DNA from: a virus
Length of the DNA: 22,227 nt
Direction: 5' to 3' (one strand)
Virus record (IMG/VR): IMGVR_UViG_3300034957_000006
Span: 1 to 22,227 of that record
Shown in pieces: positions 4,425 to 9,642 of this stretch (positions are counted from its first letter, which is position 1; each line of letters opens with the position of its first letter). The position numbers and the translations under genes were made by a program. The notes under the pieces are model-generated. The model had not been told where the DNA came from, did not search any database, and worked only from the letters and a program-made list of their open reading frames with translations.

Positions 4425-5162
4425 ATGCATGATCCGATGACAGTGGCGCATGAGATTCACGGTCCGCGCGGCCTGCTCCATAAGTGGAGACGTGATCACG
4501 TTGACAGGTATAATCATCGCGATAAACGTTTCTCCTATCTCTCACCACTTATAACTATCTGGCATAACGATCCTGAAACTGACGGTTCCGACGACTCGTG
4601 CGGCTACTCGTATCCGAAAGTTCCGCGCGAATTGAGAGAAAAGGCCGAGAAGATTGCCGCTGACGAGTGGACCTACATGTTTGGTAAGTACGCCTACAAG
4701 TACCAGCAGCCCTCGGCGTTTGAGGTTATTCACGCACTCTGGAGTATTTATGCTTGGCGGTTATTCAAGCGCAAACGTTTAACCTTGCTGGAGATGGACG
4801 AGATTGCGGGATTGGCGTCAAACCCAAACAACAACCTACGTGCGGTGATTTTTGATGCCTCTCGAAGTGAAGATGAGATGAGGCGCTTAGGCGCGTTGAT
4901 CTTGCGTTGCTACTTTCGCGTTCATCGCAAGTGGTACCAGCATCCGAAGTGGCATGTTCACCATTGGAGTATTCAGGTTCATAGCGTCCAAGCGTTTAAG
5001 CGCTGGGTCTTTAGTCGATGCGAAGGATGCGGTGAGAGATTCAGGTGGAAATACTCACCTACGTCTACGTCGTGGCACGGCACTGGCCCACGCTGGTTCA
5101 GAAAAGAGACTGGTGTTTACCATACGGAATGTCTCCCGAATCGGCAGGTAAAGGCAGCGTAA
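4425..5162 (+). CDS. protein of unknown function with C-terminal Cys/His cluster (245 aa)
   Basis: Starts at ATG 4425, directly after the previous stop, with GAGGAAAA about 10 bases upstream. An in-frame ATG at 4437 is an alternative. The N-terminal part (MTVAHEIHGPRGLLHKW) is basic and His-rich. The middle is helical with many aromatic residues (EWTYMFGKYAYKYQQPSAF, ALWSIYAWRLFKRKRL). The C-terminal 50 residues carry C199 and C202 (CEGC), then H218, H233 and C236 (YHTEC), likely one zinc site. I do not recognise the family and see no nuclease HNH signature despite the histidines. It is the largest gene in the unassigned stretch between portal and protease. A nucleic-acid-binding accessory role is possible, not shown. 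Confidence 0.75.
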   Translation: MHDPMTVAHEIHGPRGLLHKWRRDHVDRYNHRDKRFSYLSPLITIWHNDPETDGSDDSCGYSYPKVPRELREKAEKIAADEWTYMFGKYAYKYQQPSAFEVIHALWSIYAWRLFKRKRLTLLEMDEIAGLASNPNNNLRAVIFDASRSEDEMRRLGALILRCYFRVHRKWYQHPKWHVHHWSIQVHSVQAFKRWVFSRCEGCGERFRWKYSPTSTSWHGTGPRWFRKETGVYHTECLPNRQVKAA

Positions 5163-5172
5163 ACTTGAGCGA

Positions 5173-5376
5173 ATGAGCACCGAATCCATCCCCCGTCTGA
5201 TAAAACCTGTTGCAACCGAGCCAATCGGTGATAGAATCCGGCTAACTGATGAGCTTGAGGTGCAAGTTCGTCGCATCGTACAAGAGGAATTAAGAGAGTT
5301 TTTACTGGTTGAAAGACGTGCCGCGAGGTTAATTGATTCCTACGTGGCCCAGCGTTTAGGACTGAATACGACTTGA
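5173..5376 (+). CDS. small protein of unknown function (67 aa), N-terminus resembling the 5685 gene product
   Basis: Starts at ATG 5173, ten bases after the previous stop, with only a weak ribosome binding site. Residues 8-29 (LIKPVATEPIGDRIRL followed by an acidic ELEVQ) resemble the start of the fibre-like protein at 5685, which has IKPTAPVVTDEIGDTIHL and EMQ. The rest is a charged helix (VRRIVQEELREFLLVERR). The shared N-terminal motif could be an attachment or oligomerisation module, or the trace of a duplication. No family name can be given. Confidence 0.6.
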   Translation: MSTESIPRLIKPVATEPIGDRIRLTDELEVQVRRIVQEELREFLLVERRAARLIDSYVAQRLGLNTT

Positions 5377-5582: not shown

Positions 5583-5680
5583 TTGACAATCTAAGGTCGC
5601 AACTCTAACCGAGTCCCGCCCGTCGTTTCTGGATCGCGTTCAACCCGTCCAGTAGCGGCGGGCTTTCTTTTTCAGGAGAC
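5583..5680 (+). ncRNA. structured leader element, copy 1 (terminator/attenuator-like)
   Basis: About 98 bases between two genes. In order: TTGACA (5583-5588), GGTCGCA (5595-5601), a small hairpin ACTC/GAGT (5602-5605 with 5611-5614), an outer helix CCCGCC/GGCGGG (5615-5620 with 5657-5662), an inner helix CTGGA/TCCAG (5629-5633 with 5648-5652), then a T-rich tract (5664-5672) and AGGAG (5674-5678) before ATG 5685. A second copy is at 7110-7215, with the same helices but different pairs. GC-rich helices followed by a U tract resemble an intrinsic terminator, yet the tract runs straight into the ribosome binding site of the next gene, which suits an attenuator or regulated leader. TTGACA could be a -35 box, but the -10 candidate (TAACCG, 17 bases on) is poor. 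I cannot name a known RNA family for it. Confidence 0.65.
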
Positions 5681-5684
5681 ACCA

Positions 5685-6212
5685 ATGGCAAAACGTAAGC
5701 CGATTAAACCAACCGCTCCCGTCGTCACAGATGAAATCGGCGATACGATACATTTAAGGGGGTGCATTGAGATGCAACTCCACAACGCCTTCAACGGTGA
5801 GCCAGTTGGCGATCGTATGCGCATGAACACGGTAGTGACCGCTGGACGCCGCTGGGTGCTGGAGAAGATTGGCTCATTCTCAAACCAGACAAACTCGATC
5901 AATGCGATCGCGGTCGGAACCTCGACTACTGCGCCTGCGACGAGTGATACCGCGCTCGGCTCCGAGATTACTGCCTCAGTGGGACGCAAGACGATCGGCA
6001 CATTCACCACGACGAATCTGACGAGTAATCCTCCCTCTTGGCGCGCGGAGGTGAGTTTTGCGACTGATGAAGCAACCGGGACGCTGGGTGAGGCGGGGTT
6101 GTTTAATACGTCGAGTGCGACGGCAGGCACGCTCCTGTCACACGTGACGTTCAGCACAATAAACAAATCAACTTCAAATACACTTTCCGTGAGTTATACG
6201 ATATCAGGATAG
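5685..6212 (+). CDS. putative tail fibre / virion appendage protein
   Basis: The 175-residue product starts at ATG 5685, seven bases after AGGAG. After an N-terminal IKPTAPVVTDEIGDTIHL segment it follows a pattern common in small phage fibre or collar proteins: VVTAGRRWVLEKIG, then INAIAVGTSTTAPATSDTAL, then GEAGLFNTSSATAGTLLSHV and a terminal beta strand NTLSVSYTISG. The family usually forms beta-rich virion appendages. The position, between portal and protease rather than in the distal tail, leaves open whether it decorates head or tail. It follows structured leader copy 1 and precedes the endonuclease gene; the pair sits between the two leader copies. Its start resembles the small protein at 5173. 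Confidence 0.6.
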   Translation: MAKRKPIKPTAPVVTDEIGDTIHLRGCIEMQLHNAFNGEPVGDRMRMNTVVTAGRRWVLEKIGSFSNQTNSINAIAVGTSTTAPATSDTALGSEITASVGRKTIGTFTTTNLTSNPPSWRAEVSFATDEATGTLGEAGLFNTSSATAGTLLSHVTFSTINKSTSNTLSVSYTISG

Positions 6213-6215
6213 TGT

Positions 6216-6245
6216 TTGCGGCAATGTAGCATCTTGTGGTATACT
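6216..6245 (+). promoter_or_regulatory. candidate promoter for the endonuclease gene
   Basis: An extended -10 element TGGTATACT (TATACT at 6240-6245, TG at 6237-6238) lies 18 bases downstream of a partial -35 box TTGCGG (6216-6221). It is placed just after the fibre-like gene and 24 bases before ATG 6269. A separate promoter suits a free-standing selfish endonuclease gene. The call is by eye only. Confidence 0.4.
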
Positions 6246-6268
6246 CCATTTCAAGGAGGAATTACAAG

Positions 6269-7105
6269 ATGGAAGAAAGATGTACCAGATGCAGATCTTT
6301 GAATCATACGTCCGGGGAACACGCTGAGAAGCTAGCGGAAGGGCGTCGTAATAGTAGTAAGTGGCGAGAAGCGGTTGCGGCTGCCAATACGAGAACGAAA
6401 AAGGGAAAGCCAGCTCGTTTTCGCGATCCGATAGCACGCGGTAAGGCGATAGCCCACGGTCTTAGTAGACCGGAAACCAAAGCGTTACGGGTAAAGGTAC
6501 TCAAGGAAGTATGGGCCAAGCGCTCCGAGGAAGAACGGCAAGCTATTGGTGCCAAAAGTTCAGCGAGCCAAAAAGGCAAGGAGTTTACCCCTGAGCACTT
6601 AGCCAATCTGCAAGCCGCAAACGCAAAACCACGCAGCGAGACACATCGACAAAAGTTGTCAGAGGCCCGAAAAGGACAGTCGTCATGGAACAAAGGCTTA
6701 ACTAAATTTACCAACGCCTCAGTGGCGGCGATGTCGGCCAAACAGGTTGGACGTATCCCGGACTACAACAAGTATCGAGCGCACTACGATGGCCCAAAAG
6801 GAAAATATCTCATGCGCTCGCGTTGGGAAGTGGCTTACGCAGAGTGGTTGGATGAACAGGGAATTGATTGGCGGTACGAGCCACGCTGGTTCAATCTTGG
6901 CGGCACGAGCTACACACCAGACTTCTACTTGCCTGCCGAAGATCGCTACGTGGAGATCAAAGGACGGATGACTGAAGAGAACGCAAAGAAGTTGAAAAGA
7001 TTCGCGGAACGCTATCCGCATGTTAATCTAACTGTTCTGCAACGAGCGGAACTAACTGCGATAGGTTTACTGGACAAGCATTGTCGATTGGTGAAACGTC
7101 AGTAG
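6269..7105 (+). CDS. free-standing homing-type endonuclease (NUMOD3 + PD-(D/E)XK)
   Basis: The product (278 residues) starts at ATG 6269, eight bases after a strong AAGGAGGA (6253-6260). An upstream in-frame start at 6236 would skip this site. Order of parts: a CxxC knuckle (C5, C8; CTRC), a basic helical region, NUMOD3-like DNA-binding repeats at about 98-145 (ASQKGKEFTPEHLANLQAAN, then SETHRQKLSEARKGQ and NKG), and a PD-(D/E)XK nuclease core: E187 in MRSRWEVAYAEWL, D218 in YTPDFYLP, and E229-x-K231 in YVEIKGRM. All key residues of the core are present, so it is probably active. NUMOD3 is typical of homing endonucleases, which cut related genomes and spread their own gene. There is no intron or intein around it. 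Target site unknown. Confidence 0.88.
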   Translation: MEERCTRCRSLNHTSGEHAEKLAEGRRNSSKWREAVAAANTRTKKGKPARFRDPIARGKAIAHGLSRPETKALRVKVLKEVWAKRSEEERQAIGAKSSASQKGKEFTPEHLANLQAANAKPRSETHRQKLSEARKGQSSWNKGLTKFTNASVAAMSAKQVGRIPDYNKYRAHYDGPKGKYLMRSRWEVAYAEWLDEQGIDWRYEPRWFNLGGTSYTPDFYLPAEDRYVEIKGRMTEENAKKLKRFAERYPHVNLTVLQRAELTAIGLLDKHCRLVKRQ

Positions 7106-7109
7106 CTTT

Positions 7110-7215
7110 TTAACAATTTAATCAGGGTCGCACGCTGAGCAATCAGCCCCGCCCGCTATTTACCGGATCGCGTAACAGCCCGTCCGGTGAGTGGCGGGTT
7201 TCTTTGTTTGAGGAC
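7110..7215 (+). ncRNA. structured leader element, copy 2 (terminator/attenuator-like)
   Basis: This is the second copy of the element at 5583-5680, in front of the protease gene. Conserved blocks: TTAACAATTTAA (7110-7121), GGTCGCA (7126-7132), GGATCGCGT (7165-7173), CCCGTCC (7179-7185), TTTCTTT (7199-7205). Helices: CTGA/TCAG with a GCAA loop (7135-7138 with 7143-7146), outer CCCGCC/GGCGGG (7148-7153 with 7193-7198), inner ACCGGA/TCCGGT (7162-7167 with 7183-7188). The small hairpin and the inner helix use different base pairs from copy 1, yet pairing is kept. A ribosome binding site (GAGGA, 7210-7214) follows the T-rich tract, nine bases before ATG 7224. It probably controls protease and capsid expression, either by attenuation or as a binding site; that function is inferred. 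Confidence 0.65.
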
Positions 7216-7223
7216 TCATCAAG

Positions 7224-8348
7224 ATGCCGTGGCGAGTGGAAGAGAGAGACGGTCGTTTCTGTGTTGTGAAAATCACAGACGGTAGTACCGTCCACTGCCA
7301 CGACACGCGCGCAATGGCCGAAGCCCAAGTCCGCGCCTTATACGCAAGTGAGGGTAAGTCCTTCTCCTATCTCGACATTGAAAGCGAGGGTAAACCGCCA
7401 ATGGATAATGCGACAGATGCGCTGGTTTTCTATGGCGGCGCGGTGAAGGCACTGGGCAATGGAAAGCTCGGCGGCTACCTCGTGGAGTTTGCTGATCCAG
7501 CGACATTCAAGGGCTCACCGGACCTTGAGCAAGAGTTCTTCGCAAAAGACACTGATTACGATTTGGAAGAAGGCAAGAGTGCGACGGTCTACTACGATCA
7601 CGGCAGAGATCCAGTCCTGAAACGCCGCAAGCTCTCTCGCGGAAAGATGCGAACTGACGATGTTGGGGTGTGGATCGAGACGCAGCTTGCGCTCAGAGAC
7701 GATTATGAGAAAGCTGTTTATCGACTTGCTGAACTCGGCAAGCTGGGATGGTCGTCAGGCTCAGCTCCACATCTCGTCGAGAAAAAGAGCGTCGGCGGCT
7801 TTACCAAGATCGTCTCGTGGCCTCTTGGAGATGACGCATCACTGACAGTCCAGCCCGCCAATCATCGCAGTCAGGCAGTGACGCTAAAGTCAGTCGAAGC
7901 GCTCACGCTGGACAGTCTGATTGAAGAACTGGAAAAACCAGATCTCCCTCCATTCACTACCAAATCGTTAGAAGAGGCGCTTAGTGCCGCTTATGACGAC
8001 GATCTTGATACCCACTCCCTCAAAGTGGCGACCGCTGTTGAGGAGTTGATTGCCCACTACACCAAAGCTGCTACCGCACTCGACGTGCTTAGTGGCCGCT
8101 TGGCAAGGAAGCAGGAGTTTCGCGCTATCAAGGATGGCCGTGCTTTCTCGCAACGGAGAGTCGATAAGATGAACGAGTTGATTGCTCAACTGAAGAAGTT
8201 AGCTGAGCATCCACTTGCACTCGCCTCCGAGTTCGAGAAGATGGTCAAAGAAGCAGTTACGACGAGAGATCAGCGTAACGCGCTCCAGCAAGCTGCGGAA
8301 TTCCAGTACAACCAATTCCAACAGTTAAAGGAGTCACACAATGGCTGA
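7224..8348 (+). CDS. prohead (head maturation) protease with scaffold-like C-terminus
   Basis: The 374-residue product starts at ATG 7224, behind GAGGA at 7210-7214. Residues 1-45 form a small N-terminal domain (MPWRVEERDGRFCVVK; AMAEAQVRALYASE) often found ahead of phage proteases. The protease domain spans about 65-210: FYGGAVKALGNGKLGGYLVEF, then VYYDHGRDP with the likely catalytic H126, WIETQLALRDDYEKAV, and LGKLGWSSGSAPH with the likely nucleophile S177 or S178. This matches the herpesvirus-assemblin-like HK97 gp4 family. The C-terminal part (about 240-374) is helical and charged and could act as the scaffold (delta-like) region. Its stop overlaps the capsid gene start by eight bases. 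The expected role is to cleave capsid and scaffold during prohead maturation. Confidence 0.88.
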   Translation: MPWRVEERDGRFCVVKITDGSTVHCHDTRAMAEAQVRALYASEGKSFSYLDIESEGKPPMDNATDALVFYGGAVKALGNGKLGGYLVEFADPATFKGSPDLEQEFFAKDTDYDLEEGKSATVYYDHGRDPVLKRRKLSRGKMRTDDVGVWIETQLALRDDYEKAVYRLAELGKLGWSSGSAPHLVEKKSVGGFTKIVSWPLGDDASLTVQPANHRSQAVTLKSVEALTLDSLIEELEKPDLPPFTTKSLEEALSAAYDDDLDTHSLKVATAVEELIAHYTKAATALDVLSGRLARKQEFRAIKDGRAFSQRRVDKMNELIAQLKKLAEHPLALASEFEKMVKEAVTTRDQRNALQQAAEFQYNQFQQLKESHNG

Positions 8349-9642
8349 CACGCAAGTTAATACTTTTGAGAACTTGAGTTTCAATGAACTCGGAGCGTTC
8401 AAGGATCTAAAGATCGCTGAATTGGATTCCTATTTCAAGGCTCATACCAAAGACGGCCAGATCGTCATGGATTCGGACGAAGTAGAAATCGTTCGCATGA
8501 AGAACCGGGAGATCACCGAGGCCACTAAGCGCTGGGAGAACCTGCGCGAGATGGATGAAGTGTTCAAGCAGACGGTGGAGAAGCATACGAAGGCGAATAC
8601 GGTAGATCGTAAGGTGCCATTCATCGTCGATGGCGCAAACGGGTTTCAGCAATCCGCCGCCGCATTGAAGTCTATCGGCGAGATGTTCACCGACTCTCCT
8701 GCGTACAAAGCTGCACGTGGACTGCATGATAGAGGTATTCCGAACTATAACGTTACCATCGGCGAAAATCTCGATGCCCGTGCGATGAAGACGCTGATGA
8801 CGACGAGTGCGGGGTTCGCGCCTCCGAATGATCGTACAGCGCGAGTGGTGGATTTTGCCCTTCGTCGTCCGACTGTGGCCGATCTGATTCCGACTGATCC
8901 CACAACTCTCTCCACGATCAAGTACATGGAGGAAACCACTTGGGGTACAGCGTCAACTAATGCTAACCCCGCTGCGGCTGTAGCTGAAGGTGATCCCAAA
9001 CCCGAAGCTGAACTCGTCTTCACTGAGCAATCGGTTGACGTGGAGAAAGTGGCGGTCTGGATTCCGGTCACTGCCGAGCAGTTGGACGACGTTCCGGGAA
9101 TTCAGGGCGTGATCAATAACCGACTCAGCATGATGCTCCAGTTAAAAGAGGAAGACTACTTACTGAATGGCACGGGTACGCCGCCGCAAATCCTCGGGTT
9201 CCTCGTTAAGTCAGGCGTGCAGACGCAAGCTGCTGCTGGTGACACTAACATCGACACGATTTACAAAGCGATGACGAAGGTGCGAACGACAGGATTCGCC
9301 GAACCGACTGCGGTAGTCGTCCATCCGAACAACTGGACGCCGATTCGACTCGCCAAGACCCTCGACGGCATCTACATCTGGGGTGCGCCGAGCGATCCCG
9401 GCCCCGAGCGCATCTTTGGCAAGTCGGTAGTCGTCACGACTGCGATGACTGCCGGAACCGCACTCACTGGCGACTTCCAACTCTACTCGCACATCAGCCG
9501 TCGGCAAGGAATCACGATTATCGTTGGCACGATTGGTAATCAGTTGATCGAGAACAAGAAGACGATCGTGGCTGAGATGCGCGAGTCACTGGAAATTTTC
9601 AGGGCGTCAGCATTTTGTAAAGCGACCGGATTGGCGTCGTAA
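8341..9642 (+). CDS. major capsid protein (HK97 fold)
   Basis: The main shell subunit, 433 residues. It starts at ATG 8341, seven bases after AAGGAG (8328-8333) and inside the protease stop. The first 120 or so residues are helical and charged (FKDLKIAELDSYFKAH, TEATKRWENLREMDEVF), a typical delta/scaffold segment removed by the protease. The HK97 core then begins: MKTLMTTSAGFAPP, FALRRPTVADLIPTDPTT, KYMEETTWGTAS, VEKVAVWIPVTAEQLDD, EEDYLLNGTGTPPQILGFL, VVVHPNNWTPIRLAKT and, near the end, GFLVK to LIENKKTIVAEMRESLEIF. All these blocks fit the family and the order protease-capsid is classic. No self-crosslinking pair can be claimed from sequence alone. It is followed by a perfect hairpin. Confidence 0.95.
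   Translation: MADTQVNTFENLSFNELGAFKDLKIAELDSYFKAHTKDGQIVMDSDEVEIVRMKNREITEATKRWENLREMDEVFKQTVEKHTKANTVDRKVPFIVDGANGFQQSAAALKSIGEMFTDSPAYKAARGLHDRGIPNYNVTIGENLDARAMKTLMTTSAGFAPPNDRTARVVDFALRRPTVADLIPTDPTTLSTIKYMEETTWGTASTNANPAAAVAEGDPKPEAELVFTEQSVDVEKVAVWIPVTAEQLDDVPGIQGVINNRLSMMLQLKEEDYLLNGTGTPPQILGFLVKSGVQTQAAAGDTNIDTIYKAMTKVRTTGFAEPTAVVVHPNNWTPIRLAKTLDGIYIWGAPSDPGPERIFGKSVVVTTAMTAGTALTGDFQLYSHISRRQGITIIVGTIGNQLIENKKTIVAEMRESLEIFRASAFCKATGLAS

Follow-up and report, generated by a model that had tools for sequence, protein, structure and literature searches.

Intrinsic (rho-independent) terminators serve as attenuators, the late terminator tR' of phage lambda is passed with Q, and the nut site of the same phage consists of a boxA and a boxB. 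The put RNA of phage HK022, which belongs to early operons, has two long bulged stems, suppresses terminators lying far downstream and contains no terminator of its own (PMC9378689). Where endonucleases drive gene conversion, co-converted flanks are expected (PMC2988022). The RNA systems among these resemble in part a structured RNA leader occurring twice in the stretch of viral DNA analysed here (IMG/VR virus record IMGVR_UViG_3300034957_000006, 22,227 bases; hereafter, the window), with copy 1 at 5583-5680 and copy 2 at 7110-7215. Protein searches identified three relatives in IMG/VR, phages B (IMGVR 3300010397_000005, 72.9 kb), C (IMGVR 3300005293_000071, 14.4 kb) and D (IMGVR 3300032075_000001, 75.4 kb), whose capsid proteins are 84-89% identical. 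The leader is present in all of them, giving, together with the window, five distinct sequences from four genomes, pairwise 44-84% identical over the leader.

The sequence blocks that an earlier, sequence-only reading of this DNA had listed as common to both copies were all found where it had placed them, and the pattern CCCGCCCG-N-GGATCGCGT-N-CCCGTCC occurred exactly twice in the window and in 0 of 100 shuffles. Each copy folded into a small hairpin of 4-5 bp followed by one nearly perfect hairpin of 16-18 bp and a U-tract, neither forming a multi-helix junction, and the folding z values against dinucleotide shuffles were -3.0 (copy 1) and -4.4 (copy 2). In copy 1, on the plus strand, an unpaired GGTCGCA (5595..5601), identical in all five sequences, precedes hairpin P1 (ACTC-TAACC-GAGT, 5602..5614), whose pairing is kept despite a different sequence in copy 2 and in phages C and D. 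Then comes the long terminator-type hairpin (5618..5663; -27.2 kcal/mol, d = +13.8), made up of a 5' arm A starting at 5618, a loop segment B (5644-5650) and a 3' arm C ending at 5663, and after it the U-tract TTTCTTTTT (5664..5672), a Shine-Dalgarno AGGAG (5674-5678) and an ATG at 5685. Copy 2, on the same strand, shows in its sequence and in the five-sequence comparison the GGGTCGCA block (7125..7132), and folds into a P1 of GCTGA-GCAA-TCAGC (7134..7147) and a long terminator-type hairpin of 18 consecutive pairs (7151..7199; -34.1 kcal/mol, d = +12.3), followed by the U-tract TTCTTTGTTT (7200..7209), GAGGA and an ATG at 7224. The 5' arm starts with GCCCG in both copies (at 5618 and 7151), and a T-rich tract lies 3' of the hairpin in all five sequences.

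This layout shares with lambda tR' and with attenuators a GC-rich hairpin and U-tract ahead of late genes needing read-through, but differs from them in abutting a ribosome site, in its invariant GGTCGCA and extra hairpin, and in the lack of a recognised Q-like protein (neither of the two large relatives showed a recognisable lambda-Q-type antiterminator, PF03589). Like the nut site, it has a T-rich stretch and then a small hairpin with a loop of 4-5 nt, ahead of terminators; however, the TTGAYAAY upstream in the leader is only loosely like boxA and no N-like partner is known. The put RNA is likewise a phage cis-acting RNA of less than 100 nt with two stem-loops that acts on elongation (PMC9378689), whereas, judging from its description, the present leader departs from it in ending in a terminator-type hairpin of its own and in preceding virion genes.

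Comparison of the five sequences gave good support for a structure conserved under selection, the sample of five sequences from four genomes being below that of an R-scape-grade test. Each of the five keeps standard pairing at all 10 positions of the lower stem; both sides have changed at pair 4 (C-G to U-A) and pair 8 (G-C to A-U), and others pass via G-U. RNAalifold found both-side changes in 5 of 21 pairs. The mean duplex energy of the long stem was -27.1 kcal/mol with native arms versus -17.1 kcal/mol when arms were swapped between copies, and that of P1 was -3.4 versus -0.4 kcal/mol. The paired base changes noted by the sequence-only reading are thus real, and hold also in the three relatives, where further homologues with compensatory changes lie upstream of virion genes, in line with its proposal of a selected RNA structure. 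What it had separated into an outer and an inner helix is one continuous hairpin in each copy (5618-5663 and 7151-7199). Its outer register, CCCGCC/GGCGGG, was misplaced by three bases at the 5' arm and breaks in phages C and D, whereas the register in which GCCYGYYRUU pairs with RRYGRCRGGY is intact in all five sequences, which is why the correction matters; nor is the outer helix identical, as had been said, since it varies with compensation across the five. In every one of the five leaders, arm C can also pair with the loop segment B, which is a repeat of arm A, and in phage D the segments A, B and C have all changed together. A switch between A:C and B:C pairing was considered and set aside; no switch is claimed, because the swapped-arm energies show little covariation apart from that in D and because both folds are terminator-like.

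An initial covariance model made from four copies recovered every leader of these genomes, one of them new (phage D, 2e-12), and detected no further leaders over the whole B and D records; a second model with all five sequences gave the same outcome. A covariance-model search of the window against Rfam 15 returned no family above the gathering threshold, and what appeared when E was allowed up to 10 was at chance level, in keeping with the earlier reading, which knew of no RNA family with this layout. Among 50,697 cultured-phage records there was no leader match, and cultured phages gave no DNA match to the region and none meaningful to either leader. In an IMG/VR pattern scan, all of the matches listed looked like chance on inspection, and further scans returned only the three relatives and unrelated stretches, as checked by covariance model or by eye; one weak match (L233) was rejected as a plain terminator. 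No leader was found with distant fibre relatives (63-78% identical), and in bacterial genomes neither the capsid nor the fibre protein had relatives and, by the patterns and proteins tried, no leader was found. The leader RNA appears to be undescribed, having no relatives among the catalogued RNAs searched. Its carriers are a small group of uncultured phages of about 75 kb, a very narrow distribution that limits generality. A tRNA-Ile of phage D has GGTCGCA in its T-arm region as well, but the leader adopts no T-arm fold; the resemblance is taken as coincidence, and a tRNA origin was rejected. A repeated phage promoter was also rejected, GGTCGCA with the upstream TTGAYAAY not recurring in such a context elsewhere in the genomes.

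In the window, virion genes follow both copies. Copy 1 directly precedes a fibre-like gene (5685..6212, plus strand; PHROG 4176, tail fiber protein, 2.9e-9; PHROG 5417, 1.1e-19), and copy 2 an ORF (7224..8348, plus strand) without a family match that, from its position and a YDHG...WSSGS motif, is probably the prohead protease gene; the major capsid gene comes next (8341-9642; Phage_capsid PF05065, 5.8e-36). All leaders have stable GC-rich hairpins (-24 to -34 kcal/mol) and positive d terminator scores (+4.9 to +23 in the five sequences, by a published formula). In a scan for hairpins with T-tracts in the window, B (73 kb) and D (75 kb), the leader copies (-27 to -34 kcal/mol) surpassed in strength every other hairpin lying directly ahead of a start site. 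From the start of the U-tract to the ATG there are 21-25 nt in both window copies and in B, the sequence of phage C gives a similar spacing, and after leader 1 of phage D an HNH gene intervenes before the fibre gene. This gap holds no recognisable promoter, and the ribosome site, unblocked after the long stem, lies within a few bases of the hairpin, so that any promoter for the next gene must lie upstream of the hairpin and the capsid genes would need transcripts that pass it. The claim of a terminator-like leader which the capsid operon would have to read through is supported.

Upstream, a candidate promoter, TTGCAA-16-TAGAAT with an extended -10 TG (5210..5237, plus strand), lies inside a small ORF (5173-5376); the window, C and D share this consensus match, identically placed, and B has it in weaker form. 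Codons 10-23 of that ORF, which overlap the candidate, are identical at 12 of 14 positions in the window, C and D, and the codons after that stretch at 8 of 44; synonymous change is unusually low over the candidate promoter, which is only suggestive, the stretch having been picked after seeing the data. Just before this ORF, at 4425-5162, the window has a 245-aa ORF with CxxC-type residues and no family match, not found at this place in the relatives examined, which is likely another insertion.

Between the fibre-like and protease genes the window contains an endonuclease gene of NUMOD3 plus PD-(D/E)XK type (6236..7105, plus strand; likely start, an ATG at about 6269), with endonuclease/resolvase matches to PHROG 9019, 945 and 29037 and weak, sub-threshold Pfam matches to NUMOD3 and Phage_endo_I. 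It is present in the window and D and absent from B and C, where the protease gene lies some 15-25 bases 3' of the fibre-like gene with neither endonuclease nor leader between them. Copy 2 is found only where this gene is inserted (window and D). The earlier statement that each copy precedes a virion gene therefore holds for the window, but copy 2 is tied to the endonuclease gene and does not precede the protease gene in relatives that lack it. From 6085 to about 7300 (about 1.2 kb) the window and phage D (piece L125) differ by one mismatch, and the flanks are strongly diverged, with up to 33 differences per 50 bases on the right side, a pattern that marks this block, with the endonuclease gene inside it, as recently transferred. 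Presence or absence at a single site together with a co-converted flank is, at the sequence level, the signature of a free-standing homing endonuclease cassette, and copy 2, lying inside the near-identical block, travels with it.

As in the T-even cassettes mobE, segD and seg43, a free-standing endonuclease gene sits here between structural or neighbouring essential genes and is accompanied by a terminator-like hairpin, such terminators or stable hairpins and flank co-conversion being known from those cassettes (PMC2988022). The present cassette differs from them in carrying a relative of the operon's own leader and in its nuclease, which is of PD-(D/E)XK type with NUMOD3 rather than HNH or GIY-YIG. 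Copy 1, ahead of the fibre-like/protease/capsid operon, is probably the ancestral one, and copy 2 probably arose from a leader of that type by duplication or by capture from another phage. In the inserted sequence before the endonuclease gene (6224-6248) we noted a TGG-TATACT, extended -10-like, followed by AAGGAGG; the cassette may thus bring its own promoter. In phage D, an HNH endonuclease gene (L125:4375-4977, minus strand) has been inserted right behind the U-tract of leader 1 and ahead of the fibre-like gene, and leader 1 keeps its structure although it is now parted from that gene. This argues for a role at the level of transcription over one at the ribosome site, unless the HNH gene was inserted very recently.

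Taking these observations together, we lean, with slightly better than even confidence, towards the leader being a leaky or regulated attenuating terminator of the late virion operon, with copy 2 borne by the endonuclease cassette. Host RNA polymerase would start the leader transcript at a promoter probably about 100-370 nt upstream, and GGUCGCA, the small hairpin and the long hairpin with its U-tract would emerge in that order. Some polymerases would stop at the U-tract and others continue into the ribosome site a few bases on, so that how much fibre, protease and capsid is made, and perhaps when, would be set by the leader. At copy 2 much of the endonuclease transcript would end, and the protease-capsid genes would take their 5' leader from this copy. 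We infer termination, read-through and any regulation here from the conserved structure and its placement. An attenuator is favoured over a simple transcript end because polymerase must pass the hairpin to make capsid. Capsid is usually needed in abundance, and a strong terminator ahead of its genes counts against this reading. GGTCGCA and P1 may have a role in relieving termination. No sigma factor scored above the cut-off, and no phage RNA polymerase was matched, a search in which the control genomes were silent too. If true, this reading would mean that an uncultured phage lineage controls capsid expression by an RNA switch. It would also provide a clear example of a homing endonuclease that brings along a relative of the leader next to it, and this would account for the way in which insertions of this kind leave essential virion genes unharmed.

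Part of the same evidence would fit plain, unregulated leaky terminators, with enough polymerase leaking through for capsid synthesis, copy 1 trimming read-through from the portal region and copy 2 being the transcription end of the endonuclease cassette. The terminator-like hairpin and U-tract of all five leaders, the candidate TGG-TATACT promoter ahead of the endonuclease gene, and the case of T4, where a terminator within the homing endonuclease gene mobE stops about 30% of transcripts (PMC2988022), all suit this explanation, which we regard as a real though lesser possibility: it has no need for the invariant GGTCGCA and the conserved P1, and a hairpin of -24 to -34 kcal/mol would be odd before the most needed proteins unless relieved. 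The sequence-only reading had named a match to plain intrinsic terminators as grounds for abandoning a leader role; the terminator shape is there, but its position directly before start codons of essential genes partly excludes that outcome. A bolder extension of the attenuator, which we consider rather unlikely, is an antitermination leader of a new class, in which GGUCGCA and P1 would recruit a phage or host factor, or act on RNA polymerase, and relieve the adjacent terminator late in infection, the homing endonuclease having captured a copy so that its insertion spares capsid expression.

The long hairpin could instead protect or mature the capsid mRNA, as a 5' stabiliser or RNase III processing site with an incidental U-tract. 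We think this unlikely, given that none of the five sequences has lost the U-tract, not even the phage D copy parted from its gene, although a near-perfect stem of 16-18 bp immediately upstream of an unblocked ribosome site is what such a role would ask for, and a very stable hairpin to which no function was assigned likewise precedes seg43 in Aeromonas phage 25 (PMC2988022). That two unrelated endonuclease genes abut leaders (PD-(D/E)XK before copy 2, HNH after copy 1 of D) would also agree with a DNA-level site, the conserved block being a target or footprint of homing endonucleases; this is very improbable, as it leaves the compensatory changes in two hairpins and the kept U-tract unexplained, and B and C carry the leader with neither endonuclease at this place.

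Other features of the relatives were observed in passing. The portal-like protein of phage B (L185:1211-3892) has 893 aa, versus 470-498 aa in relatives, and portal profiles match it up to about residue 335 in the best stretch; it possibly contains another intein or insertion. The same phage encodes a 1457-aa protein without a family match (L184:13329-17702). In phage D, a terminase-like protein (L187:11891-14290) shows Hint and intein-splicing domain matches, so that its large terminase likely holds an intein, and on the minus strand (L186:7519-10194) a uracil-DNA-glycosylase-superfamily match is joined to DNA polymerase A.
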